Positions 969 to 64,000 of a DNA stretch of 64,000 nt are shown one piece after another. The position numbers were made by a program, and so were the translations under genes. Position 1 is the first letter of the stretch. Every line of letters starts with the position of its first letter. The stretch is taken from positions 49,751 through 113,750 of the forward strand of contig NZ_NHSQ01000070.1 in the NCBI RefSeq assembly GCF_016653465.1, written 5' to 3'. Below the pieces are notes generated by a model. It ran no database searches, was not told where the DNA came from, and saw only the letters and a program-made list of their open reading frames with translations. Source of the DNA: Thiocystis minor (GTDB lineage: Bacteria; Pseudomonadota; Gammaproteobacteria; Chromatiales; Chromatiaceae).

Positions 969-1160
969 GTCTGATGTCCGTCGAAAGCGGGTCGGTCCCC
1001 CAAGTGCCCCCCCCACTCAGACATGGATTATAGCGGACTTTGCTAGACGTTGTTAGACAACAAGCTATTGAATATGAAAGATAGACTGGACGTCGATGGA
1101 CCTCTTAAAACGCCATATCAGCGGATACCCTATCCGCCAATTCCAAACATGCCGTCTTCA

Positions 1161-10504: not shown

Positions 10505-10506
10505 TC

Positions 10507-10839
10507 ATGGACCAGCCATTCGTTGCCGTCGCCGCCACGGACGCCATTGCGCCCGGAAAATTCGTCAAGGTCCTGGTCGATGAGCGGCCTTACATCGTCG
10601 CCAATGTGGACGGACACTTTTATGCCGTCGAGGACAATTGCAGCCATGAGGACTATCCGCTGTCCTATGGCTGTCTGGACGGCGACCGCATCAAGTGTTC
10701 GCTCCACGGGAGCCGTTTCAGCCTGGCGACTGGCGCGCCGCTCGACGAGCCTGCGGACGAACCGATCCGCACCTATCGATTGGCGGTCGCCGAGGGTCAG
10801 GTGTGGCTCGATCTATCGAGTCCGGCGGAGATTGGATGA
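10507..10839 (+). CDS. Rieske [2Fe-2S] ferredoxin
   Basis: A 110-residue soluble Rieske protein. The cluster ligands are in NCSHEDYPL (C and H) and KCSLHGSRFSLATG (C and H), spaced as in the NirD and dioxygenase ferredoxin class. There is no signal peptide or membrane anchor, so it is cytoplasmic. It starts 2 bp after the TrpD2-like stop (ATG at 10507, with an in-frame TTG at 10501 that overlaps the stop). A catalytic partner oxygenase is not encoded next to it, so the electron acceptor is unknown. The pairing with a TrpD2-like protein is the notable point. Confidence 0.92.
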   Translation: MDQPFVAVAATDAIAPGKFVKVLVDERPYIVANVDGHFYAVEDNCSHEDYPLSYGCLDGDRIKCSLHGSRFSLATGAPLDEPADEPIRTYRLAVAEGQVWLDLSSPAEIG

Positions 10840-10940
10840 TTGGCGGATCTTGACTACAGTTAAATCAGGAGTTTCCCCTCGAACGGCGGGCGCCGTTCGC
10901 ACGCGGAGACCCTCGTGAGTCGATAGCGGGAGGTTTCCTA

Positions 10941-11375
10941 ATGAAGACCTGGATGCTCGTGGCAAGCGATGCACGCGCGCGCCTGTTCGAGGTTGCCAAC
11001 CGGAACGCAACCCTGAATGAGGTGCTGGATCTGGTGAACCCGGAAAACCGGCTGCAAGGCAAGGATCTCAAGACCGACAAGCCTGGACGGGCGTTCGACT
11101 CGCTGGGCGGACACCGGCATGCCACCCAGACGCCGGTGGATCCGAAGGAGCAGAGTTCCATCCGCTTCGCCAAGCGGGTGGTCGACGAACTGGAGTCCCG
11201 CCTCCACGAGAACCGCTTCGAGGCGCTGAACGTGGTGGCTTCGCCGCATTTTCTCGGTCTGCTGCGCGGGCAGATGAGCGATGCGTTAATGCGCGCGGTG
11301 AAGGAAGAAGTGGCGAAGGATCTCACGCTCGAGGATGCGGCGTCACTGCAGGTGCGTGTCGCGCAACTGTTCTGA
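10941..11375 (+). CDS. Host attachment family protein
   Basis: A 144-residue protein of the Host_attach family (PF10116), named after an Agrobacterium gene but widespread in free-living bacteria. Seen here: the N-terminal TWMLVASDARARLFEVA, the FAKRVVDELES helix, and FEALNVVASPHFLGLLRGQM. The fold resembles eRF1-like or Pelota-type domains, and a role in RNA or ribosome biology has been suggested but not shown. GCGGGAGG precedes the ATG at good distance. It is probably monocistronic, with a hairpin right after the stop. Confidence 0.88.
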   Translation: MKTWMLVASDARARLFEVANRNATLNEVLDLVNPENRLQGKDLKTDKPGRAFDSLGGHRHATQTPVDPKEQSSIRFAKRVVDELESRLHENRFEALNVVASPHFLGLLRGQMSDALMRAVKEEVAKDLTLEDAASLQVRVAQLF

Positions 11376-11381
11376 TCACGG

Positions 11382-11408
11382 GGATTGCCGAGTCGCATTC
11401 GGCAATCC
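11382..11408. terminator. Hairpin between convergent genes
   Basis: A perfect 10-bp stem (GGATTGCCGA / TCGGCAATCC) with a 7-nt loop lies between the host-attachment gene and the convergent FRG gene. There is no long T run on either side, so it is a likely but not certain bidirectional terminator. Confidence 0.6.
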
Positions 11409-11431
11409 TCGGGGCAACACCCTCCGGGCAA

Positions 11432-12217
11432 TCATCCCCGCGGACTGTAGTGGCGCGTGAGCCAGGCGGTCAGTCCTTCCAGACCGGGAAAGAACACCCG
11501 CTCAGTGACGTTCGACTGGTCGAGCTTATCGCGGATTTCCCATTTCAACTCGGCGGGGATGACGATCCGCATCCAGATATCCGGATAGTCGGCCAGCCAG
11601 CGATCGATGGCCAGCGTTGGGTCCGAACTCATCGAGAAAAACGCGAACTGATTGACGATGCGGTCGTCAATGGACGGCGGCTCGAAAAACAGCGTGAAGG
11701 GCTCGTCGCGGAGCTGATCCAGTTCGGCCAGAGTCTTGACGCTCTCGGAGAGCATCTCGACGGTGAAGACGTTGGCCCCCTCGTATTCGAGCCGCGAACG
11801 CAGCAGATCCGGGGCCATGCGATGGGCGGCAATATAGTTGACGCCCCAGATAGCGCCGTCCCGGTCGAACTTCTCGATATTGGACGTGGCGAAGTGCAGC
11901 GCGGCGAAGGGCGAATAGGTCCAGTCCAGCAGCCGGGTCGGCAGACCATAATGCTGGGCGACCGAGAGCCAGTGCCAGACCGAATCGCGCTCCACCACCC
12001 GCCGATGGGCATACTTGCGGAAATTGCGCAGCAGATGTCGTTCCAGTTGCGCATACTCGCCGCCGAGACGCATCAGGGTCGTCTCCAGCGGATAATTCGC
12101 GTCGGACAGGCCACGGAAGGCATAGCGCGAACGATAACGGCCAATCTCCGGCACCCAGGAATCGGCGAAGAGCACATCCTGGATTTCAGCCCAGGACGTG
12201 ACCCGGATCGGATTCAT
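11432..12217 (-). CDS. FRG-domain protein
   Basis: A 261-residue protein carrying the FRG domain, named for its F-R-G residues: RYAFRGLSDANYPLETTLMR at about 32-51. It also shows QHYGLPTRLLDWTYSPFAALHFA at about 88-110, typical of the family, and VNQFAFFSM further on. FRG proteins are of unknown biochemistry and some sit in defence or toxin loci. Here the neighbours are clpA and a host-attachment gene, which do not suggest a partner. It starts 21 bp after the clpA stop on the same strand, so read-through from clpA is possible. Confidence 0.85.
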   Translation of the reverse strand: MNPIRVTSWAEIQDVLFADSWVPEIGRYRSRYAFRGLSDANYPLETTLMRLGGEYAQLERHLLRNFRKYAHRRVVERDSVWHWLSVAQHYGLPTRLLDWTYSPFAALHFATSNIEKFDRDGAIWGVNYIAAHRMAPDLLRSRLEYEGANVFTVEMLSESVKTLAELDQLRDEPFTLFFEPPSIDDRIVNQFAFFSMSSDPTLAIDRWLADYPDIWMRIVIPAELKWEIRDKLDQSNVTERVFFPGLEGLTAWLTRHYSPRG

Positions 12218-12237
12218 GACGACGCTGCCAAACCGGT

Positions 12238-14499
12238 TTACAGCGCCCGTTTTTCCCCATTGAGATCGAATGCAAGTTCGCCATTCTCCACGCGGACGCG
12301 AACCGCGCCGCCGCCAACCAGTTCGCCGAACAGCAATTCGTTGGCGAGCGGTTTCTTGATGTGGTTCTGAATGACGCGGGCCATGGGGCGCGCGCCCATC
12401 TTGGGGTCATAGCCCTTCTCGGCAATCCAGCGACGGGCTTCGGCATCGACGATCAGGCTGACCTTTTTCTCTTCCAGTTGCTGTTCCAGCTCGAAGACGA
12501 ACTTATCGACCACGCTGCGGATGGTTTCTTCGCCCAGCGAGCCGAACTGCACGACGGCGTCGAGTCGGTTGCGGAATTCGGGCGAGAAGTAGCGCTTGAG
12601 GGCCTCCAGACCGTCGGTCGAGTGATCCTGTTCGGTGAAGCCAATGGAGCGGCGCGCGGTCTCCTCGGCACCGGCGTTGGTGGTCATGACAAGCACGACG
12701 CTGCGGAAATCCGCCTTGCGCCCGTTGTTATCGGTGAGCGTACCGTGATCCATCACCTGCAACAGCAAATTGAAGACATCAGGGTGGGCCTTTTCGATCT
12801 CGTCGAGCAAGAGCACCGAATGCGGATGCTTGTTGATCTGCTCGGTCAGCAGCCCGCCCTGATCGAAGCCGACATAGCCGGGCGGCGCGCCGATCAGACG
12901 CGAAACCGTGTGCCGCTCCATGTACTCGGACATATCGAAACGCAGCAGTTCCATCCCGAGAATGCGGGCTAGCTGGCGCGTGACCTCGGTCTTGCCGACG
13001 CCGGTGGGTCCGGTGAAGAGGAATGAACCGATGGGCTTGCCCTCGTTGCCCAGCCCCGAGCGATTCATGCGGATCGCCGAGGTCAGGGCATCGATGGCCG
13101 GATCCTGACCATAGACCACCATCTTGAGATCGCGATCCAGGTTCTTGAGCGATTCGGTATCGGACACCGAGACGCGCTTGGACGGAATCCGCGCCATCTT
13201 GGCGACGATGGCCTCGACATCCGCCACGTCGATGCGTTTCTTGCGCTTAGCCGGGCTTTTCAGTTGCACATGGGCGCCGGCCTCGTCGATCACGTCGATC
13301 GCCTTATCGGGCAGATGCCGATCGTTGATATAGCGGCTGGACAGCTCGGCGGCGGCGCGCAGAGCCGGATTGGTATAGGTGACCTGATGGTGATCCTCGA
13401 AGCGCGACTTGAGCCCCTTGAGAATCTCGAAGGTCTCCTCGATCGAAGGCTCGTCCACATCGATCTTCTGAAAGCGCCGCGCGAGCGCCCGGTCTTTCTC
13501 GAAGATGCCGCGATATTCCTGATAGGTGGTCGAGCCGATGCAACGCAGATCGCCGGAGGCCAGCACCGGTTTGATCAGATTCGAGGCGTCCATGACCCCA
13601 CCCGAGGCCGATCCGGCGCCGATGATGGTGTGGATTTCGTCGATAAAGAGGATGGCGTGCGGCTGGCGCTTGAGTTGCGCAAGCACCGCTTTCAGGCGTT
13701 TCTCGAAGTCGCCGCGATATTTGGTGCCAGCGACCAGACCGCCGAGATCCAGCGCATAGATCACGGCATTGTTCAGGATTTCGGGAACCTCGCCATCGAC
13801 GATCTTCTTGGCCAGACCCTCGGCGATCGCGGTCTTGCCCACGCCGGCCTCGCCCACGAACAAGGGATTGTTCTTGCGCCGACGGCAGAGAATCTGAATG
13901 GTGCGCTCCACCTCTGGGCCGCGGCCGATCAGCGGATCGATCCGACCCTGGCGCGCTAGTTCGTTCAGGTTGGAGGCAAAACTTTCGAGCGGGCTGGAGC
14001 CTTCTTTTTCCTCGCCGCGCACCTCATCCGATTCGCCCGGCGCATCGTCTTCCTGATTCTCGCCCGGCACCTTGGAAATGCCGTGCGAGATGTAATTGAC
14101 GACGTCGAGCCGGGTGACATCCTGCTGATTGAGAAAATACACGGCTTGGGAGTCCTGTTCGCTGAAGAGCGCGACCAGGACATTCGCCCCCGTCACCTCC
14201 TTCTTGCCGGCGGACTGAACATGGAACACGGCGCGCTGGAGCACCCGCTGAAAACCGAGCGTAGGCTGAGTATCGCGCTCTTCCTTCGCGGGGATCAGCG
14301 GCGTGGTCTCCTCGATGAAAGCAGAAATCTCGCGGCGCAGACGATCCGCGTCCAGTCCGCAGGCCCGCAGCACCTTGGCGGCCGTCGGATTGTCCAGCAG
14401 CGACAGCAGCATGTGTTCCACGGTCATGTATTCGTGGTGTTTGGCGCGCGCCTCCTTGAAGGCCCGGTTCAGTGTAAATTCGAGTTCTTTGCTCAGCAT
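12238..14499 (-). CDS. clpA: ATP-dependent Clp protease ATP-binding subunit ClpA
   Basis: Unfoldase of the ClpAP protease, with the N-degron adaptor ClpS encoded just upstream. The 753-residue product has the N-domain ([24 protein letters not shown]), AAA+ domain D1 with [14 protein letters not shown] and [13 protein letters not shown], and domain D2 with [16 protein letters not shown]. It also has the ClpA-type ClpP-binding region. It lacks the long ClpB middle coil. The ATG at 14499 gives the family N-terminus. It follows clpS by 68 bp on the same strand, giving a clpS-clpA operon. Confidence 0.97.
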
Positions 14500-14567
14500 C
14501 GGCCTGTTCCAAGCGGGGGGTTTAGGAAACCATAACACTGTGCCGCACTGCGGTCTTCAAACAGCGC

Positions 14568-14891
14568 CTACGCCTCTTCCATTGTACACATCAGCGGATG
14601 CTGATTGCTGCGCGCGTAATCGTTCACCTGCGCGACCTTGGTCTCGGCGATCTCCTTGGTGAAGACGCCACAGACGCCAACGCCGCGGGTATGCACATGG
14701 AGCATGACCTGGGTCGCTTTCTCGCGGTTCATCCCGAAAAAAATCTCCAGCACGAGCACCACGAACTCCATCGGGGTGTAATCGTCGTTCAGTAGCAGGA
14801 CTTTGAACAAGGGCGGACGCCGTAATTTGGGTTTGGCCTCTTGGACGGTCAGCCCGGATTCGCGTTCGTCTCCTGGTAGTTCGTCACTCAT
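14568..14891 (-). CDS. clpS: ClpS adaptor
   Basis: A 107-residue N-end-rule adaptor that delivers substrates to ClpA. The conserved core is visible: [20 protein letters not shown] (the [10 protein letters not shown] binding-pocket stretch) and [23 protein letters not shown]. The N-terminal tail ([18 protein letters not shown]) is disordered, as needed to engage the ClpA pore. First gene of the clpS-clpA pair and divergent from a cold-shock gene. Confidence 0.97.
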
Positions 14892-39700: not shown

Positions 39701-41227
39701 GTGCCAGGCTCGCGTGGAGACCGGAATCCGAGCGCCCTCCCGGGTCAACAAGGGTAGGGAGCAGGTGCCGCGATTGCCCGCTCGCAGCACGGCCAGATGC
39801 CCCTCGCACTCCTGACGCTGCTCTGCCGGGTGGAGCGCCATGATCGACAACCCCGCCAGTTCCTCGGCGCGGTACCCGAGCGTGCGTTCGACGGCCGGGT
39901 TGACATCGAGAATCCGGCCCTCGGACGTCATCACGAAGATCAGATCGTCCATGCTGTCGAAAAAGGCGTGGAAATTGACTTGCTCGCGTTCGAGCGCGCG
40001 GAAGCTGGCGTCCAGCGAGTCGGCGATCGCGGTCAGCGTGGTCGCCAATTGTTCCGTTTCGACGAAGAGGCTGGACGGCGGCGCGGTCCAGGACGCGCGG
40101 TCGCGGAGCGCCGCCGGCAGGGCGCCTGCGCTGGCGTTCAGACGCCCCAGCAGACGCGACAGATGACGGCTGCCGATCCCGGCGACGAGCAGGGCGATCA
40201 GCGTCAGGAGCGTCAGCGTCTGCATCGCCTCCATCACTGCTCGCTGGGAGCGCTCGATCAGCGAGGCCGCGCTGACCGAGACGATCAAGGCACCGCCGGC
40301 ATGGGGCAAGGCGAGTTCGTAATGCGCCTCGCGATAGCGTTTCATGCGCGAACCCTGTCCCGTCAGATGGTCGGGCAGGTGCAGACGCGTCACGCCATCG
40401 GTTGGCGTGACGTCGCTGGCTGGCGCCAGGCGGACTTGCGGCTCTTCATACTCCAGCAGATCCGCGCCGAACAGCCGACGTAAGGCATTCAGCTCGGGGG
40501 ATGTCGGAGTGGTGGCGAACTCGGCGGGCGGCATCGCGTCGAGTTCGCGTGCCACCAGGTGGGCGAAGAGATGAAGCCGCTGGCCGAACCGCGTCTCCAG
40601 CTCGGCGGTAAACAGCCGGTTGTCGGCGAAGGCGACCAGGAGCCCCGGCAGTAGGATGCCAGCCAGCAGGGTGGCAAAGTGAAAATCGGCGATCGGCACC
40701 CCGCCTCGCGGTTGGCGGACCAGCGCGACCAGCAGCAGAATCAAGCTCGCCAGGGCCGCGTTGAAAATGCCGTTGAGCGGTTGTTTTAAGGCGATCAGCA
40801 GGGTTTGCGACCCGTTCAAGCCGAGTCCGAGACGATAGAACCACAGCACCAGCGGCACGCCGACAAGCAGCCAGAACGCCGCGCTGGCGACGGCCAGCGG
40901 CGGCGCTGGCCGGCCGCGCCGCCGGGCCAGCGTGCGCAGCCCGCCGATGATCGCGATCTCGGCGACGAAGATGATCAGCGCATAGGGATGACCCCACAGC
41001 AACAGGGTGTAGGCTCCGCCTGCGGCGGCGACCAGCAGGGCGGGGATAAACCCGAGCCAGACCAGCGCCAGCAGCGCGGCCACGGAGCCAAACAGCAGAT
41101 CGACTCCGAAGAAGAACGAGAGCGGAAAGGCATTCACGACGGCCGCGACGGCCGCGAGCAGTGCCGTGAAGAGTGCGCGCCGCGCGGCGCTGACCGAGAC
41201 GTCAGGTCCAGGATGGTGGGCGGTCAT
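36764..41227 (-). CDS. Large membrane multi-PAS/GAF hybrid histidine kinase
   Basis: A roughly 1487-residue sensor kinase. Residues 15-240 hold about six membrane helices of a MASE-like sensor, then an extracytoplasmic loop and a further helix near 335-360. PAS domains follow (about 415-540 and 545-670), a GAF domain (about 675-830; DRAFCCLIDERTDTL), and two more PAS (about 845-1085). The dimerisation motif is HLASGIAHDFNNLLGVI, the NtrB-like class. HATPase boxes are NLVLNARDAMPDGG and DTGHGMRPETLERIFEPLF. A C-terminal REC carries LVLSDIAMPVLDGI. The ATG at 41227 follows GGAGGATCTTG. A palindromic repeat element lies just upstream. Confidence 0.93.
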   Translation of the reverse strand: MTAHHPGPDVSVSAARRALFTALLAAVAAVVNAFPLSFFFGVDLLFGSVAALLALVWLGFIPALLVAAAGGAYTLLLWGHPYALIIFVAEIAIIGGLRTLARRRGRPAPPLAVASAAFWLLVGVPLVLWFYRLGLGLNGSQTLLIALKQPLNGIFNAALASLILLLVALVRQPRGGVPIADFHFATLLAGILLPGLLVAFADNRLFTAELETRFGQRLHLFAHLVARELDAMPPAEFATTPTSPELNALRRLFGADLLEYEEPQVRLAPASDVTPTDGVTRLHLPDHLTGQGSRMKRYREAHYELALPHAGGALIVSVSAASLIERSQRAVMEAMQTLTLLTLIALLVAGIGSRHLSRLLGRLNASAGALPAALRDRASWTAPPSSLFVETEQLATTLTAIADSLDASFRALEREQVNFHAFFDSMDDLIFVMTSEGRILDVNPAVERTLGYRAEELAGLSIMALHPAEQRQECEGHLAVLRAGNRGTCSLPLLTREGARIPVSTRAWHGQWNGQDCLFGIGKDLTDEMAVRDELRAERDLFSVGPVFTIVWGASESWPVRQVSSNVADILGYTPAEMMDAAFQYAALIHPDDLEQVVAEIVGHIDAQGDVFEQSYRLKLRAGEYRWFYDFTKLVRDEQGEIVEIRGYLFDQNERKDAEIQLKRRVSLDHLLVDLAGELVNLPPSGLDAFIERSLGRLGRHLDRAFCCLIDERTDTLSKTHEWTAAGVSPRRAHGQRAPLAGFPIMLQQLRANEPVSLQNVSELSVDWADECARLASPETCSLLLMPMIHANRLLGFVGLEAVRLPHRWSSNKREFLRLYSNLLVGALLRERNDRALCESLAHYDRLAEQTRSFAWEVDAQGLYTYVSPLAEPVLGWRPGELVGTRHFYDLAPAAERATLKRQGLDAFARHALLSDFVNVAEHRDGRRIWLVTHGQPFFDADGALLGYRGSDQDITERQETLARLAASEQRLRTVFDHAPIGIAIPDRERRFVYVNYAYARLLGRDRAELIGQPIDPMIHEDDRAETDRLFTELMSGQRDSYRMNRRYRRPNGEIVWGDLRVMLMPVAEGEPPLPVGMVEDITERMAVQADNQRLQRELESARERETIGHLASGIAHDFNNLLGVIDANLYYLSDSLSGEGADPEIAEILGETQSALGHAKIITAGMLSLSRAGGIPRERVALSQVFEELTAILRQLLPSILDVRIWTEDGLFASSNGAFLQAALLNLVLNARDAMPDGGQLSLEACRVNAAPALPQRLGEALSGAHLEIRVSDTGHGMRPETLERIFEPLFSTKAKQRGHGLGLFMVQEFVTRTGAALAVASRLGEGSEFRLWLPIDASAPAAPLELNHRPPMISVGAMPRILLVEDDPRVREAVGRLLTANGIRFAAAEHGAAGLERLRQEPDFDLVLSDIAMPVLDGIDLFRTLARERPDLPVILMTGQDLKPHRLDTDERRPLILPKPLDPDRLMRVIGEVFRDHSAAARDAA

Positions 41228-41270
41228 CAAGATCCTCCGTGAGAAAACCTAAACCGTGTCCGGCACGGAA

Positions 41271-41510
<240 letters not shown>

Positions 41511-41658
41511 TTTATCCGCCGCCCCATGTGCCCGCCGCGCCCGGAAAACCTTCCGACTCTCCGCGTGAAACATGGAACGTATCCATCAACTGTTTCCCGA
41601 CTTGAGCGGTACTGTCCGGTCGACATCGGGACGTAGAAAATGGACAGTTGCTAAGCGC

Positions 41659-52814: not shown

Positions 52815-52874
52815 CGCGGTGTTCAAATCTGGCGCCCGCCGACCAGGTTGCCGGCGGGAGCCCCCTTCACTGGC

Positions 52875-53540
52875 TTATCCCGCCATCGCCGCCTTCATCT
52901 CCGCCGCGTACTGATCAGCATTGAGTCCGACCAGCAGATGCAGGACGTTGTCCGGCAGCCGCAGGATGCCCTGGACACCCGCCGCCTCCAGCGCCGGCTC
53001 ATCGAGCTTCGCGCCGTCGCTGACCGTGACCCGCATCCGAGTCTCGGCGCAGGACTCGGCCAACTGGACGTTGTCGGTTCCGCCCAGGCCGGCCAGGATG
53101 GCGCGGGCGTTCTGCGGCGCCAGCGGATCGCGATGACGCGGCTTCAGATCATCGCTCTTGTAGCGCACCTGGGGCGCGGCGGCGCCCTCCGGCAACTCGG
53201 CTTCGGGTCCGGCGGTGCTCAGATATTCCTCCATGTCGGTCTTCAGATTGTCCGATTTGGGTCCGAAGATGGCCTGAAGGTTGTTCCCGACCGTGACCAC
53301 GCCGGCGGCTCCTAACGCCTTGAGCTTGCCCGGATTGGCCTTGCCCATGTCGGCGACCTCGACCCGCAGTCGCGTGATACAGGCGTCGAGTCCCAGGATA
53401 TTGCGCTTGCCGCCGAAGCCAAGCATCAGTTCCCTGGTGAAGTCGTCCGCGATGACGGACTTGATGTCGGCCATCTCCGGAGTCTCCGCCTCGCGTCCCG
53501 GCGTCTTGAGATCGAACCGCAGGATCAGCACGGAGGCCCC
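52875..53540 (-). pseudogene. Orphan tandem EIIB fragment of a glucose/GlcNAc-type PTS transporter
   Basis: The frame begins within the linker that follows the EIIC domain ([13 protein letters not shown]) and continues through two EIIB domains. EIIB1 has its phosphocysteine in [14 protein letters not shown], then [20 protein letters not shown]2 has [15 protein letters not shown] and ends [15 protein letters not shown]. The transmembrane EIIC part (about 400 residues) is missing, so the protein cannot transport sugar. It resembles NagE-type EIICBB proteins. The break is near 53540, next to the ptuB stop. An Enzyme I scrap lies on the other side of Septu. Confidence 0.85.
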
Positions 53541-53560: not shown

Positions 53561-54274
53561 TTAAAGCAGTTCCGGGGCTTCATCTCGAAGAACTTGGTCG
53601 GCGACGCGGCCGAAAAACTGCCGGGTCGCGGTGAAGAATGGACTCAGGCGCCTATTTGTCGGCAGCAAGTCGACCGCTGCAAGGTGATAGACACTTTGAT
53701 CTTCGTCGATGTGCTGTTGCAGCAACTTGTCGAGTTCGTCCCACCACCGCCGGCGACGGTTGACGAGGAACGGGCAGTTCAGGTTCAGCAGATCCCTGGT
53801 ATAAAGCGCCCGGTCGCGATCCGCCGAATCGAGTCCGAGAGCAGGCTCCACGCGCCCGTCGGAGAGATAGGCGAACAAGCGCGGGCAGTTGGGATCAAGA
53901 CACGACACGAACAACGTGCTGTCGTATGTGCTGCGCTTGGCATGTCCACCAAAGACCTCGGCGGCAGGGAGTGCCTTGAGGTCGCTATCGGCCAAGGCGC
54001 TGGCCACAAGATTACCGTAGAGAAAGGTCTCCGCGGGGAACTGGCTCTTTGGCCTGAGGTGCTCGATGTGATAGCCGAATCCCTCCGGCTCGGCTTGGAT
54101 CTCCGAATAGGCGCACAGCCCGTATTGCTCGCGCAGGAGTTGTTCCATGAGAGCGGGCTTATGCCGTCGAAAGCTCCTCCAGCGTGTTTCCGCATCCTGT
54201 CCCGTTGCCGGCGGGCTTTCGTGCGCCTGTTGCAGGGCGTAGGTTCCATTTCCAGTCTTACGGATGGCCCTCAT
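53561..54274 (-). CDS. ptuB: Septu HNH endonuclease PtuB
   Basis: A 237-residue HNH protein of the type found next to ATPases in Septu and some retron systems (TIGR02646-like). The nuclease centre is seen in [16 protein letters not shown], then [13 protein letters not shown] (the H and PKS of the HNH motif), with [14 protein letters not shown] and [19 protein letters not shown] further on. It probably cuts DNA or RNA on activation by PtuA. Its ATG overlaps the ptuA stop (ATGA), so the two are co-translated. The PTS fragment follows directly. Confidence 0.9.
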
Positions 54275-55662
54275 CGCTTGAGGGCCTCCTGGCGCCTGAT
54301 GCTGCGCTCGATTCGTTGCAGTTGCGGATGGCTTCCACGCAGTCGATCCTGCAAACCCCGCAGCAATTGCTGTGCTTCATCGGTTGCGTACCGACCCTGG
54401 TCCACCAACTCGACCAAGCGCCTTAAGTCTGGCCTTTCCTTGATCGGGGGCTGAGGGTCGACCAGCATGATGCTTTCCAGCACGTCGCTGCTGATCTCGC
54501 CGTAAGAGGCGGCGAGCGGCTCGCTGGCGACATACTTCCCCTCGGCCGTTCGTCCCAGGGTGCGAATCTGTTCCTTGTGGATGGATGTCAGCACTTGCGG
54601 ACTGTGCGTCGTCACAATGAATTGGATCTTCGGAAATGCCTCCCGCAAACTGGCGATGACAAGCTGTTGCCATTGCGGATGAAGATGCATGTCGATCTCG
54701 TCGATCAACACGATTCCGTCGGTTTCCAGCGGTGCGCGGGTGCCCAGAGCGGGATTTAATTTGACGCAGCGATAAGCGATATCGCCGGCCATGGCGATCA
54801 TGTTGCGCTGACCGTCGCTAAGCTGATCCACTTTCAATTCGCCAAATTCCGGATGGGACATGACCAGGGTTTGGTTGCTTGGGCTATATCGCAGCCCCGT
54901 CCAACCCGAGCCGCTCATCATCCGGTCAACCGATGCGGAAACCGCTTTCAGGATTTCCCCATGATTCGTTGAATCGAATACGCCATGAAAACCCTGGCGT
55001 TCGAGCGTCTTGGTCTTATGTTCGAAATCGGCGGCGAAATTGAAAAAGAACCAGTCCAGGAAAGAGCTGTAGTCCGACGCGGATTCCAGGCAGCCATGAT
55101 AGGCATAGGTGCGCGAGAACAGGGCGTTTTTCTGCTTGCGCTGGAGCGTAAGTTTGCGCGACTTCCAAAGCCGGCCGGTCCCGTAGTATGCAATGACTGG
55201 CAGCTTCAAATCGGAGTGGTCGTCCTCGCTGTCCTGCTCATCCTGGTGCCTGATCCGGGCCTGATAAGCCGACCCGATTTCAGCCAGGGGTTTGGCGTCT
55301 CTGACTGTCGTCTTCGACCCGCGACTGACCTTGTCGCGCGACCGCGACCAAACGACTTCCCGTCCGTCGATCACGGCCGTGGCGGAGATCACCGATGGCA
55401 GCCGAGGTTCCATATCCACGGGAGTCGTCGCACCGACTGGACGCATCGTTACATCGTCGATCTCGATCCCGGTCCCAGACTGCGTCCCGCTCACCACATC
55501 GAAGGCGCTGACGTAAGGCCACAAGGCAATGCGGATCGCGTCGAGAATCGCGCTTTTCCCTTGACCGTTCGGCGCGACCAGGACTGTCAGAGACTCATCC
55601 AGCGCAATGGTGAGTGTGTCGAAACAACGATAATTCGTCAGCGACAACCGAGTCAGTTTCAT
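54271..55662 (-). CDS. ptuA: Septu ATPase PtuA
   Basis: A 463-residue ABC/AAA-type ATPase of the Septu anti-phage system. The N-terminal MKLTRLSLTNYRCFDTLTI and Walker A APNGQGKSAILDAI are followed by the signature VDQLSDGQRNMIAMAGDIA. Walker B is GIVLIDEIDMHLHPQWQQ and the switch region QFIVTTHSPQVLT. There is no TOPRIM domain, which separates it from OLD and GajA. With PtuB it forms a two-gene Septu module. It is on the minus strand, 34 bp downstream of the PTS Enzyme I scrap. Confidence 0.92.
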   Translation of the reverse strand: MKLTRLSLTNYRCFDTLTIALDESLTVLVAPNGQGKSAILDAIRIALWPYVSAFDVVSGTQSGTGIEIDDVTMRPVGATTPVDMEPRLPSVISATAVIDGREVVWSRSRDKVSRGSKTTVRDAKPLAEIGSAYQARIRHQDEQDSEDDHSDLKLPVIAYYGTGRLWKSRKLTLQRKQKNALFSRTYAYHGCLESASDYSSFLDWFFFNFAADFEHKTKTLERQGFHGVFDSTNHGEILKAVSASVDRMMSGSGWTGLRYSPSNQTLVMSHPEFGELKVDQLSDGQRNMIAMAGDIAYRCVKLNPALGTRAPLETDGIVLIDEIDMHLHPQWQQLVIASLREAFPKIQFIVTTHSPQVLTSIHKEQIRTLGRTAEGKYVASEPLAASYGEISSDVLESIMLVDPQPPIKERPDLRRLVELVDQGRYATDEAQQLLRGLQDRLRGSHPQLQRIERSIRRQEALKR

Positions 55663-55695
55663 ACGAGCGATCTCTGGCTGTCTGCACAGGCAACA

Positions 55696-55905
55696 TCAGA
55701 ATGGTTCGTCATATTTCGTGGTGCGCTCCCGGTTTTTCTTCTTCAACGTCATCACGGAATCCTCATCGGGAAAGGTTTGGTTCAGCGGTTGGCCGTTCAG
55801 GGCTGCCGAAATGTCGCTATAGATCTGGGTCTGCTCATCATCCGTCGGCGCGGTAGAGCGGTCGAGATAGAGGAACTCCGAGCGCAGGAGCCCGACCTTC
55901 CTCAC
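55696..55905 (-). pseudogene. PTS Enzyme I fragment
   Basis: The first 40 codons read KVGLLRSEFLYLDRSTAPTD, then DEQTQIYSDISAALNGQP, which matches the conserved VGLxRTEFLFMDR..PTEEEQ region of PTS Enzyme I (about 55785-55903). Then the match stops and unrelated sequence runs to 55696 (MTLKKKNRERTTKYDEPF). The rest of Enzyme I, including the phospho-His, is missing. The fragment starts right at the end of the upstream nuclease-like gene. The ORF has a GTG start, but it is more likely a scrap than a gene. Confidence 0.75.
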
Positions 55906-55908
55906 TCT

Positions 55909-56475
55909 CTATCCGACTGTTGCCGTCTCGTCGGCGTTGCCGGGAGCGCTGATCAGGCCCCATTTCCTCGCGTGCTCGTCGTTGATGACAGCGACCGCAG
56001 TGGGGGAGAGTCCCATCGTCCTGACGAGGGGTAAGAGTGCCTTATGCAAGGCATCCTGCAATGGCGCGCACCAGTCTGGCTGGTGTCCTTTGACCACCAG
56101 TATCAATCGGAAGCTAACCTTCGCCAGGTCGAGCGTGATGAAATTTCTGGGCAAGAGATCCCGAGTCGCACCGTGGCGTCCCAAGCAGCTCGCGAGCGTG
56201 ATCTTGAGCGCGTTGTCCAGCTTCTCGCTCACCTCGTTGATAAAGCGATCTAAACGTCCGGCATCATCGGTACCGGCTGGCCTCGGCGAACTCGACTTCG
56301 CCTCGATGATCCAGACCGTCAGCCCGCCTTGCGCCTGCCTGAGCACGGCCATTTCAGCGATCTTCACGCCCTGTCGCATCCGCTGGTAGAGCGGGCTCTG
56401 CTCGATCGCGAAGCAGTCGTCCACATCGAAGGGGCCAAAACACATGCCGGATTCTTCGAGCAGGATCTCCGTCAC
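55909..56475 (-). CDS. Probable PD-(D/E)XK-type partner of the upstream ATPase
   Basis: A 188-residue protein I cannot name. Starting at GTG 56475 it reads MTEILLEESGMCFGPFDVDD, then IEQSPLYQRMRQGVKIAEMAV, and VWIIEAKSSSP. The E-x(n)-IxEAKSS pattern at about 40-60 fits a PD-(D/E)XK nuclease core, though a catalytic role is inference. The rest is helical, with FRLILVVKGHQPDWC further on. GTG overlaps the ATPase stop in a GTGA, so the two are translationally coupled and probably form one system. Confidence 0.7.
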   Translation of the reverse strand: MTEILLEESGMCFGPFDVDDCFAIEQSPLYQRMRQGVKIAEMAVLRQAQGGLTVWIIEAKSSSPRPAGTDDAGRLDRFINEVSEKLDNALKITLASCLGRHGATRDLLPRNFITLDLAKVSFRLILVVKGHQPDWCAPLQDALHKALLPLVRTMGLSPTAVAVINDEHARKWGLISAPGNADETATVG

Positions 56476-57542
56476 TTGAGCGCCAGCTCCACTTCCTGCT
56501 CGTAGAGTCGGATCGACTCGTCGATGATGGGATTCGCTGGCATGCCGTCTCGAAGGTCCGTGGTCTCCCATTGCTCTCCATCGGCCATCGCCATCGGAAT
56601 GGATAGCCCCTTCTGCTGAGCGATCAGATAGAGCTTCTTGACCACGAAGTAGGAATGGCTCGCGATGAAGAACTGAAGCTTGCCCTGGAAGACCTCGATC
56701 AGTGCGACGATCAGGTCGACGAATGCCGAGATCGCTTCGGGATGCAGACCGCTTTCCGGCTCGTCGATGAAGATGATCGAGTTGTAGCCCAGTTGTCGAT
56801 TGAGGAAGAGCGCATAGAGAGCGGAGATCTTGCGTGCCCCCTCCGCAGCCATGCCGACTGGGTAGTCTTCACCATTTCTCTTGAGTCGCCAGGTTTGACG
56901 CGGAATCGGTGCTCCATCAGGGAGTTGCTTGAATTCAGACTGCATGCGACCACCGACTTTGCTTTCGAGATCGGTCATCGCGCTTTCCGCAGGCTCCGCC
57001 AAGCCGGCCATGTCGCGTTGCCAAGACAGCGCCTTCGCGAGATCGACATAGGTATCGTCGAAACCGAACAGCCGGTCGCTCTCGCGGGAGCGCAGTATCA
57101 CGCCCTGGAGCGACAAGACTTCTTTGGCGGGCAGAAAGATCGACCGAGCGTCTCGTGCCCCCGCCGTACTGTGAAAACGGACATCGGCGCGATCAGCGGT
57201 ATGGTCGAACGCGAACTGAACTTGCTCAGGCGGAGCATTCACGCACTGCTCACCGCGCAGCATCAAGGAGACCGAAGACTCGGAGCCGCTTCCGCGACGC
57301 ACCAGATCGCCAATCCGATCCGGCTGGAAGGTCCAGTAGAGCTTGTCGCCCAGAATCTCTTTATAGCTGCGGGGCTCGTCGCCACGCCGCTCCTCCAGGG
57401 TCCGGATTGCGCAATAGAGCGCCTTCAACAGAAAGGTCTTGCCGGTCCCGTGTCGGCCGATCACGAGATTGATCGGGGCTAGGCCGCTCCAGGCGAAATC
57501 AGCCAGTGGGCCGAAGTTCTTGATCTCGATGGATTCGATCAT
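56472..57542 (-). CDS. ABC-type (AAA_15/AAA_21) ATPase of an unassigned two-gene system
   Basis: A 356-residue OLD-like ATPase without TOPRIM. The N-terminus is IESIEIKNFGPLADFAW, Walker A INLVIGRHGTGKTFLLKAL, Walker B NSIIFIDEPESGLHPEAISAF, and switch FFIASHSYFVVKKL. A signature-like AAEGARKISALYALF replaces the SxGQ motif, a divergence shared by some defence ATPases. The C-terminus is followed by a coupled gene with a likely PD-(D/E)XK core. A small ORF ends 15 bp upstream. This is not Septu (no HNH), Gabija (no TOPRIM or UvrD) or PARIS (no DUF4435). Confidence 0.85.
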   Translation of the reverse strand: MIESIEIKNFGPLADFAWSGLAPINLVIGRHGTGKTFLLKALYCAIRTLEERRGDEPRSYKEILGDKLYWTFQPDRIGDLVRRGSGSESSVSLMLRGEQCVNAPPEQVQFAFDHTADRADVRFHSTAGARDARSIFLPAKEVLSLQGVILRSRESDRLFGFDDTYVDLAKALSWQRDMAGLAEPAESAMTDLESKVGGRMQSEFKQLPDGAPIPRQTWRLKRNGEDYPVGMAAEGARKISALYALFLNRQLGYNSIIFIDEPESGLHPEAISAFVDLIVALIEVFQGKLQFFIASHSYFVVKKLYLIAQQKGLSIPMAMADGEQWETTDLRDGMPANPIIDESIRLYEQEVELALK

Positions 57543-57851: not shown

Positions 57852-57880
57852 CTAATCGGCGATTTTTTCTGGGTTGCGCC

Positions 57881-58108
57881 ATGGTGCCAATGGACGCGGA
57901 AGTGTTTTCGCTGGCCACGGACTTGCGTGTTGATGATGCGATCAAGACCCCTGACGCCCTGCATCTTGCCGCTGCGCTACTCGGTGAAGCCACCGAACTC
58001 TGGACCAACGATAAGCGCTTGGCCGCCGCCGCGAGAGACCGTATTCACATCCTGACATGGGGTGACTTCGACGGATCGAGAGCCGACACGACAACATCGC
58101 GCACCTGA
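57881..58108 (+). pseudogene. PIN-domain (VapC-like) toxin C-terminal fragment
   Basis: A 75-codon frame with VPMDAEVFSLATDLRVDDAI, then KTPDALHLAAALL and ELWTNDKRLAAAA, the C-terminal half of a PIN-domain RNase toxin. The KTPDALHLAAA and TNDKRL motifs are typical of VapC. The N-terminal part with the first acidic catalytic residues (MxxLDTN) is missing, and there is no antitoxin gene upstream. Therefore decayed. Confidence 0.8.
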
Positions 58109-58278: not shown

Positions 58279-61200
58279 TCAATCATCCTCACTGTCCGAA
58301 TCATCCATCTTGATCAGCGCATTGAGATCGATGATATGAGTTCGCGTGAAATAGATGGTCGCGTCCTCTTCCGCAAGCATGACATCCATCTCGTTGGCTT
58401 CGATTGCAAGGAAGAAGTCCCGCATCTTTTCCGTAGTGCCATTTGCGTATTTGTACATCGCCGCATGGTTTGGGCAGAGGGAAAGATAATTCTGATAGTG
58501 ACGCTTCTTGAGCCCTGGTAGAAACTCAACGGCCTCGAAGTAATGGCTGCCATCGGAAAGCTTGAAAGGAAGAGCCGTTTTGCACACCTGGCAAATCATT
58601 TCGCCGTCGCTGTTCGTATACTGGGCTCGCAGATAGGGATCTGTTTCTTTCTTGACCGCTTCTCTTGCAATGGAGACGGATCTGGTTCGTTGTTCAGTCA
58701 GGCGCTCCGGCGCCTCGGATGCTTGCTCTTGAACGCGCGTTACACGTCGCTCAGAATTATCAGGTGTGCGTTCAGGCAACTCGATTTGGCGCCTGTTTTT
58801 ATATTCCTGTTTTAATCTTGATCGCTCGCCTGAATCGAGTTCCGCGAACCACTTGGCATCTTTCAGTGATTCATCGTCATCGAAGCCTAACTGCTTCGCT
58901 ATCTCACGTCTTCTACGGCTATCCGCGGATACTTTTGAAATCTCTTCACCGAAATGAATTGCTTCAAGCCAGGACCAGCCAGAATCAAAGGCAAACCCGT
59001 CAGGGAGAAGGTCACGGTCTGCATCTCTGGGACGGACAAAGCCCCCCTCTTTTTGTGGTATCCACTTGCTTTTAGTCAGCAAAACGGCGAGCTGAGAAGG
59101 TGCTTCGCGTAGCGGGTAACTTGAGTTATTTCGATATATCGCTTTAGTCCAATCCTGGTTTTTAGGATTTGCACAAGCTTTCCAAACAAGTCGCGAGAGA
59201 CATTCACACTGGTTTTTCAAAATGCCACCTAATCCAGGGATCGTGAAGTCTCTATCAATTTTATAGGATGTTATATTTCCTGGTGCTTTCCAAACAAGGT
59301 TTTTCACGTCAGGGTTTTCATTGCAGGAAACCTCGTGTATATACAAATCGTCAACCACCCCCAATTTCCTTGAAAAAGCAACAAGCCTACGAATCGATAT
59401 TTTTTGCTCTTTATAATCTCCAGACAAAGCGAATCGACGCTCAATTTTTTTAATAGCCAGATAATAGGCGCCTAACCCTGAATCCGAATATGGAACATCA
59501 AGATACATATGGCCTGGGCGACACCAGTTGCCATCTTCATTTTTGAAAATCCAGTAGTCCTTGAAAAGGATTGAACATTCTGGCCGATTCTCCACCAGTG
59601 CCATGAAACGTTTGATATCACTAATCCTTGGATCAAATTCATCATCGATAACATAACGTTGCTGGAGCAACGCCTCAACCTGTTCAGGCTCTCCAACCTC
59701 TCGAACGCCTATTTTTTCCAAGAGTTTTTTTGCAGTCTCCTGTTCAGTTTTATTATTTCCAGATGTATAAATCTCCACGGCAACCCTGGGAAGCAATTCA
59801 TCATGCACTTCCTCGGCATCTGGAAAAAAGCACTGATTACCGACACTGTAATCACCGTTGCTTAGCTTAATGATTCGGAGTTCTTTCAATCGTCCAAGGC
59901 TGTACTGAGAATCCAACTCATGGTAAATGAGCGCATAGAGGTTTTGATGCCACTCGTCCGACTTCGTAGCCATCCAGTCCAAAAACTCGGTTTCTGGATT
60001 AGACCAATCATTATCCGTCACACGCCTCTCAAGCACTTTCAGGAAGCTATCGATATCCCATTCACGGATCTCCAAACCAGAAAGAAAGCGATCTGCATCG
60101 CTATTCTTTTGTGTTATGCCAACCGCCCACTCCCATCGGTGGTCACCGAAGTCTACCAGAAATAAAATGTCATCCATGGATAGCAAGCTTTTAAGTGATG
60201 CTTTCGCCTGTAACAGATGACTGGCAGGCGCATGAGATTTGGCAAAGGTCGGGGTTAATGGCTTGGTTATCATCTCATCCCTAATCGCTGTGCGTATGGT
60301 GTTATATCTTTGGGGAATGCGGTCTTGAAGATTTGGCAGTACCCCGAGGAAATCGCCAGTCAATAAGTTGAGGTCTCGGATGACGTGAAGTGAATCTGCT
60401 ACCAATCTCGCCAGGTTGTTAAAAAGTGGAGCATTCGCAGGCGTTTCCTTGATGCTCGCACGACTGAGTTCCGGTACGAATGGACCGTGCAAGTGAAATC
60501 GTAGTCCAGATGTCTCTTTTTGAGCGGGAAAGAAAACGGCAACATGACCCAGACTGGCTGGCACGATCCTGAATTGATCCGCGAGGTTCTTGCGAGCTTT
60601 TTTGTCGCCGATCATCGGCAGCTTCTCCAACTCGAACGCAACAGCAACACGCTGTTTTTTAAATCCTTTGACTGCACGCATAAAGCGTAAATAATGTGAA
60701 CTCGCTGTGGTTTCTCCTACGATGCGCTTTTGTATTTCAATATGATGCTTGGAGTGCGTAATTCGCACCACTTCTCCCTTGAAACCGCCAGGTGATTCCC
60801 AAGCGATAGAACTGATACGAGATAGAAAAAGCAGCGTGGTTTCAGACAATTCATTCAATCCTTCCTCAATCTCGGCATAAGCATTGCTTGCCGGCTTCTT
60901 TGGATTATTGAATGGAAAAACGAAACGGGTAACGCCGTCTAGCTCCGAATCCAACGGCAACTCAGAAGGCAAGACAAGCTCCGAAATTTCAAAGGCAAAG
61001 GTCGGAGACCAGATACGCGGCGTTTCCGTGTAAGCAAAAACCGCTTTGAACCCGATCCCAAAGCGTCCGATTTTGTCCTCGTCCTTAACCTTTGTCCCTT
61101 CGCCTATATCCGTGATGGCATAGATATCCTGGGGCTCAAACGGACGCCCATTGTGTTCAAAGGTGAGACTCGTTCTGGTCAGGATGAACTTCGCTTCGGT

Positions 61201-61353
61201 CGCACCGGTATCCTCGGCATTCTGTAACAGCTCGTAAATGAAATGAGCTCTGTCTGGATACAGATCCTCGACGATCTTGCGGATTCCCGTATGTTTTTTC
61301 AGCACTCGGGCCAGATCTTCCCGATCGAGTCGAATATCTTCAATGATGCTCAT
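58279..61353 (-). CDS. Sacsin-like GHKL ATPase with C-terminal degenerate HNH/zinc module
   Basis: A 1024-residue protein. The N-terminus is a GHKL (Hsp90-like) ATPase as in sacsin: the N-box AHFIYELLQNAEDTGATEAKF, then DIGEGTKVKDEDKIGRFGIGFKAVFAY (G-box). A long middle with no domain I can name follows. Near the end a module has CQVC (921-924), H937 in GSHYFEAVEFLP, and LCPNHAAMY (C960, H963). It resembles an HNH domain, but the catalytic His pair is replaced (EAVEFL instead of EAHHI). It starts 8 bp after the SNF2 helicase stop with an AGGAAGG site. Base composition falls clearly below that of its neighbours, especially at 59-60.3 kb, which suggests transfer. Confidence 0.85.
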   Translation of the reverse strand: MSIIEDIRLDREDLARVLKKHTGIRKIVEDLYPDRAHFIYELLQNAEDTGATEAKFILTRTSLTFEHNGRPFEPQDIYAITDIGEGTKVKDEDKIGRFGIGFKAVFAYTETPRIWSPTFAFEISELVLPSELPLDSELDGVTRFVFPFNNPKKPASNAYAEIEEGLNELSETTLLFLSRISSIAWESPGGFKGEVVRITHSKHHIEIQKRIVGETTASSHYLRFMRAVKGFKKQRVAVAFELEKLPMIGDKKARKNLADQFRIVPASLGHVAVFFPAQKETSGLRFHLHGPFVPELSRASIKETPANAPLFNNLARLVADSLHVIRDLNLLTGDFLGVLPNLQDRIPQRYNTIRTAIRDEMITKPLTPTFAKSHAPASHLLQAKASLKSLLSMDDILFLVDFGDHRWEWAVGITQKNSDADRFLSGLEIREWDIDSFLKVLERRVTDNDWSNPETEFLDWMATKSDEWHQNLYALIYHELDSQYSLGRLKELRIIKLSNGDYSVGNQCFFPDAEEVHDELLPRVAVEIYTSGNNKTEQETAKKLLEKIGVREVGEPEQVEALLQQRYVIDDEFDPRISDIKRFMALVENRPECSILFKDYWIFKNEDGNWCRPGHMYLDVPYSDSGLGAYYLAIKKIERRFALSGDYKEQKISIRRLVAFSRKLGVVDDLYIHEVSCNENPDVKNLVWKAPGNITSYKIDRDFTIPGLGGILKNQCECLSRLVWKACANPKNQDWTKAIYRNNSSYPLREAPSQLAVLLTKSKWIPQKEGGFVRPRDADRDLLPDGFAFDSGWSWLEAIHFGEEISKVSADSRRRREIAKQLGFDDDESLKDAKWFAELDSGERSRLKQEYKNRRQIELPERTPDNSERRVTRVQEQASEAPERLTEQRTRSVSIAREAVKKETDPYLRAQYTNSDGEMICQVCKTALPFKLSDGSHYFEAVEFLPGLKKRHYQNYLSLCPNHAAMYKYANGTTEKMRDFFLAIEANEMDVMLAEEDATIYFTRTHIIDLNALIKMDDSDSEDD

Positions 61354-61361
61354 GGCCCTTC

Positions 61362-64000
61362 CTAATTCGTGATGGTCAACACGCCCAAAACCACCGGCGT
61401 CGCATGAATATCCCCACTCTCAGCCGCCCGACGCAAATCAGCCAGACGCCGCTCGAAATCCTCCCGCGCTCGGGTCAGCTCGCCTTGCCGCATCAGCCGG
61501 ATCTTGTCATTGGTCGCCGCCGCGAGTTGGTCCTCAAGGAGCGTGCAGCGTGCGCGGTGACTGACGGTGAGACTCTGAATCCGATGTTCGACCAGCTCGC
61601 GGTTTCCAGCGATATGGTTCGCTTGAGCCAAACTCCACTGACTGTGATGCCGAGTATCCAGTGCGTCAAACTGCGCCACATTTGGGACTGCACCCTCTGG
61701 CGTATCCGTCGCTATCGGTAACAACCTCATGAGCGCATCCTCGATGACCGCCTCCGTTGACACGGCGATCAGTGTCTCATCCACCTTCACGCCCCACTTC
61801 TGCCAGCGGTAGAGCGCAAAGGGATAGTCACCGGCGGCAACTGCCTCGCTGTACACGGCGAGAGACGCCTGGACCGCCTCGGGTTGTTCCAGTTGCCGCG
61901 CGGCCTGCCGCACCAGGGGGTGCAAGACATTCAGATGGACGGTGTTTGGATGGTCCGCGGCCGTCTTCTGATCGAAGGTGACAGAGAGCGTGAGTTGCCC
62001 GCCCTTGAGCCATTTTTCCCACTCGCGGGCCACCGGATCATTGGCGCGCGGCAAACCTTTGAAGTCGTTGAGCAGCCGGGCGCGGGCTTCCTGATTCAGG
62101 CGCAGTGTCTTCAGCGGTTTCTCACCCTTCAGGTACTCGGTGTCAGGCTCCAGGCGATTTGCCAAATAGGTCGTCACGCAGCGTTGCAGTGCCGCCGGGG
62201 ACAGCCAGAAGGTTTCCGCCGCCTCGATCTCCTGGCGCCAGGTCTGGTTCGGCACGTCGAGTCCAAATAATTCGCTTTGCGTCGACTCCAGCCGCTCCTC
62301 CTCCTGAATCTCCCGAATCCCGTTGTCCGCGAGCTGCTGCAAGCGTTGCGCACGTTGCGCCGGGGTCAGCGTGAAGTTATCCGCGATGTCATGCAGTTCC
62401 TTGGTGATCTCGCCGAGAATCTCCTCGCTACCACCGACGGCATGCTGGAAGACACCAATGCGCCACAAACAGCGTTCGTAGATGTCGGCATCGACGGTCC
62501 CCGGCGTGATGAGGTTGACGATCGCCACCATCTCGCTTTTTTGGCCGTAGCGGTCGATACGGCCGATGCGTTGCTCGATCCGCATAGGGTTCCATGGCAG
62601 GTCGTAGTTGACGAGCAGATCGCAGAACTGGAAGTCGAGTCCCTCGCAACCCACCTCGGACGACAGCAGCACGTCCAACGCCTCGGGGAGATCCTTCGGG
62701 AGTGCGAAACGGCGGCGCAGATCAGCCCGTTCCTCATCGGGCACATCGCCATGGATCAATCCATAACGCATCCCGGCGCGCTGCGTGTGATCGGCCAGAT
62801 ATGCCAGCGTATGACGGTAGGTGCTGAAGACCAGGGCCTTGTTGTTGGACATCTGGCCTTTGTCGCGCAGAACCTTGACGAAGGCGTCAACCTTCGGATC
62901 CTGCGGATCGAGATCCGCTGCCTGCTCCAGCAAGGCTTCAATGTCCGCCCGTACCTGATCGACAAAGCTGAAATCGACCTCGATGTCGCTATCGCCAGAT
63001 TCCATCGCTTCGAGCTGATCCAGCTTGCCGCCGAGGATGTTCCGCAACAGAGGTGCAAGACCATAGATGCAGCTTGCCGCCTGACGGCGGATGGTCGTCA
63101 TCATGAATTTCACATTCTGCTGGCCGTGGCAGAACGTCAGGATGCGCGCCACGAGATCCAGCAGATCGTCATGCAGACGCTGCTGCGCGGGCGTGAAGGC
63201 GAGGGTCAGTGTCTCCGGCTTGCGAGTGGTGAACTCGCCGATGTCGCGGCGACGGGTGCGGTTGATCAGCGGACTGAAGGTGTAGAGTTCTTCCAGGGCG
63301 CGCGTCAGACCCACCCGCGCGGCAATGTCGATGGGCTCATCCGTCAGCCGGTCATAGATGGCCTGGAATGCCGGCGATTCACGCAGGAACAACCGGCCCC
63401 ATTCGGTCTGCGCAACCTCATCTAGGCAGGTCCGCGCCTCGGCCTGCCAACCGTCCTCGGCTGACCGGCAATGCTTGATGGCCTGATTGATGGGTCGATT
63501 CGGCGCGGCCATCTGCGCGAAGCTGGCGTGGTCGATGACCAGATCCGGCCGCAAGACATTGAGCAGGGTAAAAAGATCCTCGCTGCCCAACTGCACCGGC
63601 GTGGCGGTGAGAAACACCGCAGCTTGAGCGTTGTCGCAGAAATAGCGCACACCCTGATGGAGATAGGTCGCCGGGTTGCGGATATGGTGCGCCTCATCGA
63701 CGATCACCAGATCGAACTTGGGCGGCGGATCCAGCGCCAGCAATCCCCGTTTCTTCTGCTTGCCTTTGCCGCTGTCGCCGAAGACTAGATCCTCGTTGAA
63801 GAGGGAGAACGGCAGAATGGCCTTGGCGTACTGTTCGGGCCATTCGCCGTCGAGATGCGTTTCCTGCAAGCAATGCCGCAACAGTGAACCATCCAGCGCC
63901 GTGAACTGCTCATCGAAGCGCCGCATCTCGACATACCATTTGCGTTCGGAGACGAGCGCCTTGGGGCAGATGATGAGCACGGATCGAATGTCCATGCGCG
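61362..64000 (-). CDS. SNF2-family helicase, 5' part beyond the window
   Basis: At least 877 residues of a SNF2/RapA-like helicase. Visible are the DEAH box (LVIVDEAHHIRNPATYL), motif III (VFLTATPVQLGSEDLF), motif V (VGCEGLDFQFCDLLVNYDLP) and motif VI (MRIEQRIGRIDRYGQKSE). Walker A lies upstream, outside the window, so the start is unknown. A long C-terminal region of about 350 residues (helical, with TFWLSPAALQRCVT and a coil near the end) is not shared with RapA. It is the first visible gene of an operon with the GHKL ATPase. SNF2 helicases of this shape occur in several defence systems, such as DISARM, but no methylase or DrmA/B is visible here. Confidence 0.88.
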   Translation of the reverse strand, partial: RMDIRSVLIICPKALVSERKWYVEMRRFDEQFTALDGSLLRHCLQETHLDGEWPEQYAKAILPFSLFNEDLVFGDSGKGKQKKRGLLALDPPPKFDLVIVDEAHHIRNPATYLHQGVRYFCDNAQAAVFLTATPVQLGSEDLFTLLNVLRPDLVIDHASFAQMAAPNRPINQAIKHCRSAEDGWQAEARTCLDEVAQTEWGRLFLRESPAFQAIYDRLTDEPIDIAARVGLTRALEELYTFSPLINRTRRRDIGEFTTRKPETLTLAFTPAQQRLHDDLLDLVARILTFCHGQQNVKFMMTTIRRQAASCIYGLAPLLRNILGGKLDQLEAMESGDSDIEVDFSFVDQVRADIEALLEQAADLDPQDPKVDAFVKVLRDKGQMSNNKALVFSTYRHTLAYLADHTQRAGMRYGLIHGDVPDEERADLRRRFALPKDLPEALDVLLSSEVGCEGLDFQFCDLLVNYDLPWNPMRIEQRIGRIDRYGQKSEMVAIVNLITPGTVDADIYERCLWRIGVFQHAVGGSEEILGEITKELHDIADNFTLTPAQRAQRLQQLADNGIREIQEEERLESTQSELFGLDVPNQTWRQEIEAAETFWLSPAALQRCVTTYLANRLEPDTEYLKGEKPLKTLRLNQEARARLLNDFKGLPRANDPVAREWEKWLKGGQLTLSVTFDQKTAADHPNTVHLNVLHPLVRQAARQLEQPEAVQASLAVYSEAVAAGDYPFALYRWQKWGVKVDETLIAVSTEAVIEDALMRLLPIATDTPEGAVPNVAQFDALDTRHHSQWSLAQANHIAGNRELVEHRIQSLTVSHRARCTLLEDQLAAATNDKIRLMRQGELTRAREDFERRLADLRRAAESGDIHATPVVLGVLTITN

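Follow-up and report, generated by a model that had tools for sequence, protein, structure and literature searches.

We analysed a window of 64,000 nucleotides from Thiocystis minor (contig NZ_NHSQ01000070.1, positions 49751-113750), the right end of which carries a RapA-like SNF2 helicase gene followed closely by a gene for a sacsin-type GHKL ATPase (Table 1). The helicase gene crosses the window edge and was read to its start in the sequence beyond. An earlier note, made from the letters of the window, had described two large ATPase genes 8 bp apart on one strand of a defence island, with a GHKL protein joining an Hsp90-like ATPase N-terminus to a zinc/HNH-like C-terminus that had lost its histidines, and this description holds in each respect, as the reading frames, profile matches and structural comparisons below indicate. 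The genes next door were identified with PADLOC profiles as Septu (PtuA, 3.9e-159; PtuB, 1.4e-100) and HEC-02A/B (1.8e-125 and 1.4e-58), whereas a PTS IIBC gene and a PTS EI fusion gene lie upstream of the pair.

Table 1. Coordinates of the features at the locus (window positions unless another numbering is given)
Feature	Position	Strand	Remarks
Sacsin-type GHKL ATPase gene	58279..61353	minus	1024 aa ORF
GHKL protein regions	GHKL domain, residues ~16-197; transducer/S5-like, to ~330-432; long middle; McrA-type zinc domain, ~895-1010		zinc domain C-terminal
Spacer between the two genes	61354..61361	minus	8 bp
RapA-like SNF2 helicase gene, part in the window	61362..64000	minus	last 877 codons; stop at 61362
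Whole helicase gene	to virtual window position 64904 (L003:6113-9655)		1180 aa; read beyond the window end
HEPN_Swt1 domain	helicase residues 5-122, encoded beyond the window edge 64000	minus	RNase motif RNKWSH at residues 92-97
Septu and HEC-02A/B genes	53561-57542	same orientation as the pair	downstream of the pair; PADLOC profiles
Direct repeat, PTS IIBC 3' end	52831-53532 and L003:10010-10710 (virtual 65259-65959)		702 bp

The GHKL protein

The N-terminus of the GHKL protein matched the Pfam profile SACS (PF25794, E=2.9e-20) and the NCBIfam profile P_loop_sacsin (1.1e-26). The SR1 domain of sacsin superposed on residues 16-197 with a Z-score of 15.8, an r.m.s.d. of 2.7 and 26% identity, and GyrB and Hsp90, including the transducer domain, matched the first ~430 residues of the model (pLDDT 87.9) with Z-scores of 14-16. 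GHKL proteins that have a transducer domain form dimers upon ATP binding, as clamps around DNA or client proteins. The N-box residues E41, N45 and D48, the glycine motifs (G96, G99 and G101) and K103 are invariant among 73 pairs; residues 37-44 were partly selected by the search, one of the scan patterns having required HFI[YF]ELLQ, and N45, D48 and the glycine motif fall outside the patterns used.

The C-terminal domain could be traced to the HNH domain of the type IV restriction enzyme EcoKMcrA (PDB 6ghc, E=3.1e-6), with which it has the fold and the zinc site in common, while the remainder of McrA gave no match. The zinc ligands C921, C924, C960 and C/H963 are retained in the family, the last as H963 in the Thiocystis minor protein. 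The catalytic histidines of the McrA type are lost: in 68 sequences, columns 942, 943, 964 and 968 hold mostly V/I, E/Q, A/S and K/Q/R, respectively. Because the zinc ligands are kept but the catalytic histidines are replaced, we regard the C-terminus as a dead nuclease fold, which probably functions as a DNA-contact module. The same McrA-type domain ends an 850-aa protein (36% identity) on the Proteus mirabilis plasmid pHFK418-NDM (L111:3219-5771), which adjoins a helicase, a GIY-YIG protein and a restriction endonuclease.

The helicase and its HEPN domain

The helicase consists of an N-terminal HEPN_Swt1 domain, a small beta domain, an SNF2 core and a RapA-like C-terminus. The HEPN_Swt1 profile PF18731 matched the N-terminus with E=1.5e-16, and the RX4-6H motif of this domain is present as RNKWSH. 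The earlier note does not mention this domain, which is encoded outside the window. HEPN_Swt1 domains are RNases; SNF2 proteins of the RapA type move along double-stranded DNA and work on stalled polymerase. As a structural model we used the closest relative, a protein of 1183 aa with 81% identity (pLDDT 80.7), on which E. coli RapA superposed over residues 220-1179 with a Z-score of 19.6 for 724 aligned residues. Since the superposition spans this entire region, the C-terminal part of the helicase is not foreign to RapA, contrary to what had been supposed in the earlier note. All SNF2 motifs are invariant in the 73 pairs.

A HEPN domain is fused to the helicase in 51 of the 73 pairs (~70%), and one more (L068) carries it out of frame. 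In the remaining 21 pairs it is missing from the helicase and from the flanks examined. We looked in these loci for a separate or frameshifted HEPN and found only the out-of-frame piece of L068, so the other loci are truly without HEPN within those flanks. The domain therefore cannot be the sole effector of the family. On the helicase tree (FastTree, with several weak forks), gain or loss of HEPN amounts to ~12 changes. Where the domain is fused, the RX4H motif is retained in 54 of 55 copies, as would be expected for a working RNase, and such near invariance of the active site suggests that the fused domain is under selection.

The rhizobial pairs without HEPN include one on the Rhizobium plasmid pRspBT03e. 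In the HEPN-less rhizobial pairs, a gene for ~180 amino acids overlaps the start of the helicase gene (L008:8173-8703, L009:8235-8765 and L010:8160-8714). It was considered as a split HEPN and rejected, having no Pfam match; it might take the place of HEPN or control the expression of the pair. The Thiocystis minor genome encodes a second RapA-like SNF2 helicase (L121:5287-8403, on G000:C124) of 1038 aa with 32% identity, in which no HEPN match was found and around which no GHKL relative was detected within 14 kb. A HEPN_Swt1-SWI2/SNF2 fusion, WQE_15321, was tabulated as active by Anantharaman et al. 2013 (PMC3710099). By its listed architecture it is the same domain fusion as in our helicase, but that paper names neither a GHKL partner nor a system for it.

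Conservation of the pair

We scanned 84,980 species genomes for GHKL relatives and kept the best 80 of the 442 found. In 77 of the 79 loci among these with a readable upstream side, the helicase gene lies upstream on the same strand, abutting the GHKL gene in all but a few cases, and 41 of the 75 relatives with substantial helicase sequence have a 4-nt ATGA overlap between the two genes. The two exceptions are L055, from which the helicase is absent, and L088, in which the GHKL protein is fused to an SF1 helicase. The pairing suspected in the earlier note thus extends to relatives, whose conserved arrangement contradicts the alternative outcome named there, namely a pair not kept as neighbours. 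Searching from the helicase side gave the same picture: among 398 Pseudomonadota genomes, that of the window included, all four with a full-length family helicase have an adjacent GHKL gene, and among plasmids a full family helicase and a full GHKL relative occur in the same three records. Pairwise distances of the helicases and of the GHKL proteins correlate with r=0.76, compared with 0.23 for the best of 1000 permutations, a value that still includes shared species history. No third gene is conserved, the commonest neighbour family occurring in six loci only. The helicase and GHKL genes are conserved as a single unit, and the ATPase motifs of both are intact.

The distribution of this unit is patchy, with the pair found in ~1% of the sampled genomes, and ~18 named phyla, clearly intermixed, are represented on the helicase tree. 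Three rhizobial plasmids (Rhizobium and Ensifer) and two contigs of a viral collection carry the pair, and a diverged archaeal form with a helicase of 27% identity occurs on a methanogen plasmid. Phage records gave one distant partial match, and a distant blastn search with a Vibrio helicase as query found no E. coli copy.

The island and its neighbourhood

The GC content of the GHKL gene (46.8%) is below that of the helicase gene (60.9%). This drop, which the earlier note took as a sign of recent acquisition, is real, but as evidence of acquisition it is weak because GHKL genes share the trend family-wide: in 81 pairs they average 4.5 GC points below their helicase partners, the Thiocystis minor pair being the extreme, and the two genes move as one. 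A stronger sign of acquisition is the repeat that flanks the island. On either side of the segment ~53533-65258 stands a copy of the 3' end of a PTS glucose IIBC gene, with 90.3% identity over 702 bp, the right copy lying within an intact gene and the left one being truncated, which suggests that the island was inserted by recombination. No integrase was recognised between the two copies. Between the HEC-02 and Septu genes we also noticed a 116-nt fragment of the PTS EI fusion gene (55782-55897; 91% to L003:12870-12985), as if two defence cassettes had been joined via homology to the PTS operon. On the plus strand at 57876-58106, a remnant (DALHLAAALLGEATELWTNDKRLAAAARDRIHILTW) resembles, by eye only, the C-terminal portion of a toxin of the PIN/VapC type. 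Farther off, an ORF of simple repeats (NESKNESKN..., DNDNDN...) at 41202-41573 is probably spurious, being read from a short tract of tandem repeats.

The neighbourhoods of the relatives are likewise rich in matches to defence profiles, as a count proposed in the earlier note brought out. At E<=1e-10, 243 PADLOC families were matched by the 147 genes within 3 kb of the pairs and 102 by the 94 genes lying beyond 6.5 kb, compared with five families for 45 ordinary genes of the Thiocystis minor chromosome, in a crude count of families rather than genes with one genome as its baseline. Among the genes within 3 kb are two helicase fragments from broken pairs (L036 and L082), which probably account for the DrmD, DrmA and BrxH matches there; these matches were not counted as evidence. 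Among the named neighbours are BREX PglZ and BrxL, an ABC-three-component system and a GmrSD-type protein.

Relation to known systems

We searched the open-licence literature and found no published name for a pair of sacsin-type GHKL ATPase and SNF2 helicase. The PADLOC profiles match each protein singly, TmtA the GHKL protein and DrmD the helicase, and none of the named systems combines the two, in agreement with the earlier note, whose author knew of no named system made of the two. DrmD of DISARM, BrxHII of BREX, HmaA of Hma and RapA share with our helicase an SNF2 architecture of the RapA type that extends through the C-terminus; our helicase differs in its N-terminal HEPN domain, its GHKL partner and the lack of a methylase and of DrmA/B/C. 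Membership in DISARM, BREX or Hma was rejected, as the similarity to their helicases is that of SNF2 proteins in general.

Operons of MORC/paraMORC GHKL ATPases and superfamily II helicases, sometimes of the SWI2/SNF2 type, were proposed to have a role in restriction by Iyer et al. 2008 (PMC2292703). According to the parts of that article considered here, these operons usually carry methylases and endonucleases, and a sacsin-type protein with a McrA-type tail does not feature in those parts; in the loci of our relatives, no conserved methylase or nuclease gene accompanies the pair. The combination of GHKL and SNF2 proteins is present in our pair and the sacsin family fits its GHKL protein best, the families having been compared by description. 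The pair is rated as belonging among the GHKL-helicase immune modules, which have already been predicted as a kind.

Discussion

From the strict pairing, the occurrence in many phyla and the neighbourhoods of defence genes, we infer that the pair very probably serves as a so far unnamed defence against viruses. How it might work is a more tentative matter. With a probability of roughly 0.45, we favour a two-gene system against invaders, most likely phages, in which a GHKL clamp would cooperate in DNA surveillance with an SNF2 motor that carries the effector. On binding ATP, the GHKL protein would dimerise into a clamp resembling those of Hsp90 and MutL and grip foreign DNA or a structure of phage replication or transcription, with the nuclease-dead zinc domain serving as its contact to DNA. 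The RapA-like subunit might be both the translocating motor and the carrier of the effector. In most members, this effector would be the N-terminal HEPN RNase, unleashed once the complex engages its target, and the cutting of RNA would halt infection by an abortive or growth-arrest response. A methylase that could set a mark of self and non-self is not part of the two-gene unit.

The leading alternative is a defence that acts on the DNA itself, comparable to exclusion of the DISARM or BREX kind, in which the SNF2 motor and the GHKL clamp would block, strip or process the invader, leaving HEPN as an optional back-up toxin. We consider it rather unlikely, even though it accommodates the 21 HEPN-less pairs, in which no substitute was recognised, as well as the repeated switching of HEPN on the helicase tree and the resemblance of the helicase to the motors DrmD, BrxH and RapA above all. 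HEPN has indeed been proposed as a back-up effector in BREX-related systems (PMC12839542). However, we recognised a nuclease active site in neither protein, the HNH-like domain being dead, and the selection that the nearly invariant HEPN active site implies is at odds with a dispensable role.

A role outside defence is improbable. The architecture of the helicase, which is that of RapA through the C-terminus, and the chaperone nature of sacsin and Hsp90 would suit a RapA paralogue working with a chaperone-like ATPase in stress or in the recycling of RNA polymerase. Such a function would hardly account for the patchy spread, for the copies on plasmids and viral-collection contigs, for the position of the pair between defence genes, or for an RNase-toxin domain fused to the helicase.

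It is decidedly improbable that the GHKL protein acts alone as a short variant of Tiamat, a single-gene GHKL system, with the helicase as a passenger. The PADLOC TmtA profile does match residues 4-681 at 1.2e-54, reflecting a homologous sacsin-type N-terminal two-thirds, but only positions 7-691 of the model's 1302 aa are covered, and the other GHKL proteins of the sacsin type that we tested match it about equally or better, so that membership in Tiamat was rejected on this superfamily-wide resemblance. The TmtA models have 1063-1782 aa, whereas our protein has 1024 aa, a McrA-type end and, nearly always, a helicase at its side; retention of the helicase in 77 of 79 relatives over ~18 phyla is unlike a passenger and does not fit a single-gene system.

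A remnant of DISARM or of another large system whose other genes were lost is very improbable: although DrmD is the best PADLOC profile of the helicase (1e-110), the score of 312.9 bits is well below the equivalog cut-off of 610 of NCBIfam NF038317, the flanks at the locus hold PTS genes, HEC-02 and Septu and none of drmA, drmB, drmC or a methylase gene, and the unit of helicase and GHKL genes recurs across relatives.

The reading as a clamp with an effector-carrying motor also touches a sister family of the GHKL protein. Sacsin-type GHKL genes of this family are directly paired with a UvrD helicase that carries a PD-(D/E)XK nuclease (L118:5188-11193, L126:5268-11138 and L129:5038-11150), a candidate for a second GHKL-helicase system, and this partner fits the idea of an effector carried by the helicase partner. 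In L088 (positions 9914-14839), a GHKL protein of the clade of the SNF2 pairs is fused to an SF1 (AAA_11/AAA_12) helicase in one protein of 1641 aa, which is a single-gene version of the link between GHKL protein and helicase. We give slightly less than an even chance to a broader reading, in which sacsin-type GHKL proteins might constitute a broad, so far unrecognised class of two-component immune machines. Each would combine a GHKL clamp with an exchangeable motor/killer helicase, be it SNF2 with a HEPN RNase, UvrD with a PD-(D/E)XK nuclease or a fused SF1 helicase, and the GHKL proteins of the SNF2 clade would end in a dead-nuclease tail for contacting DNA.

In summary, a widespread candidate immune system of two genes emerges, tying an ATPase that resembles Hsp90 and sacsin to a chromatin-remodeller-like motor bearing an RNase. 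The pair predicts clean point mutants, namely E41/N45 in the GHKL protein, the DEAH motif (with D403/E404) in the helicase and R92/H97 in HEPN. It would offer a simple model for the immune role of sacsin-type ATPases, a group that includes the human ataxia protein sacsin.
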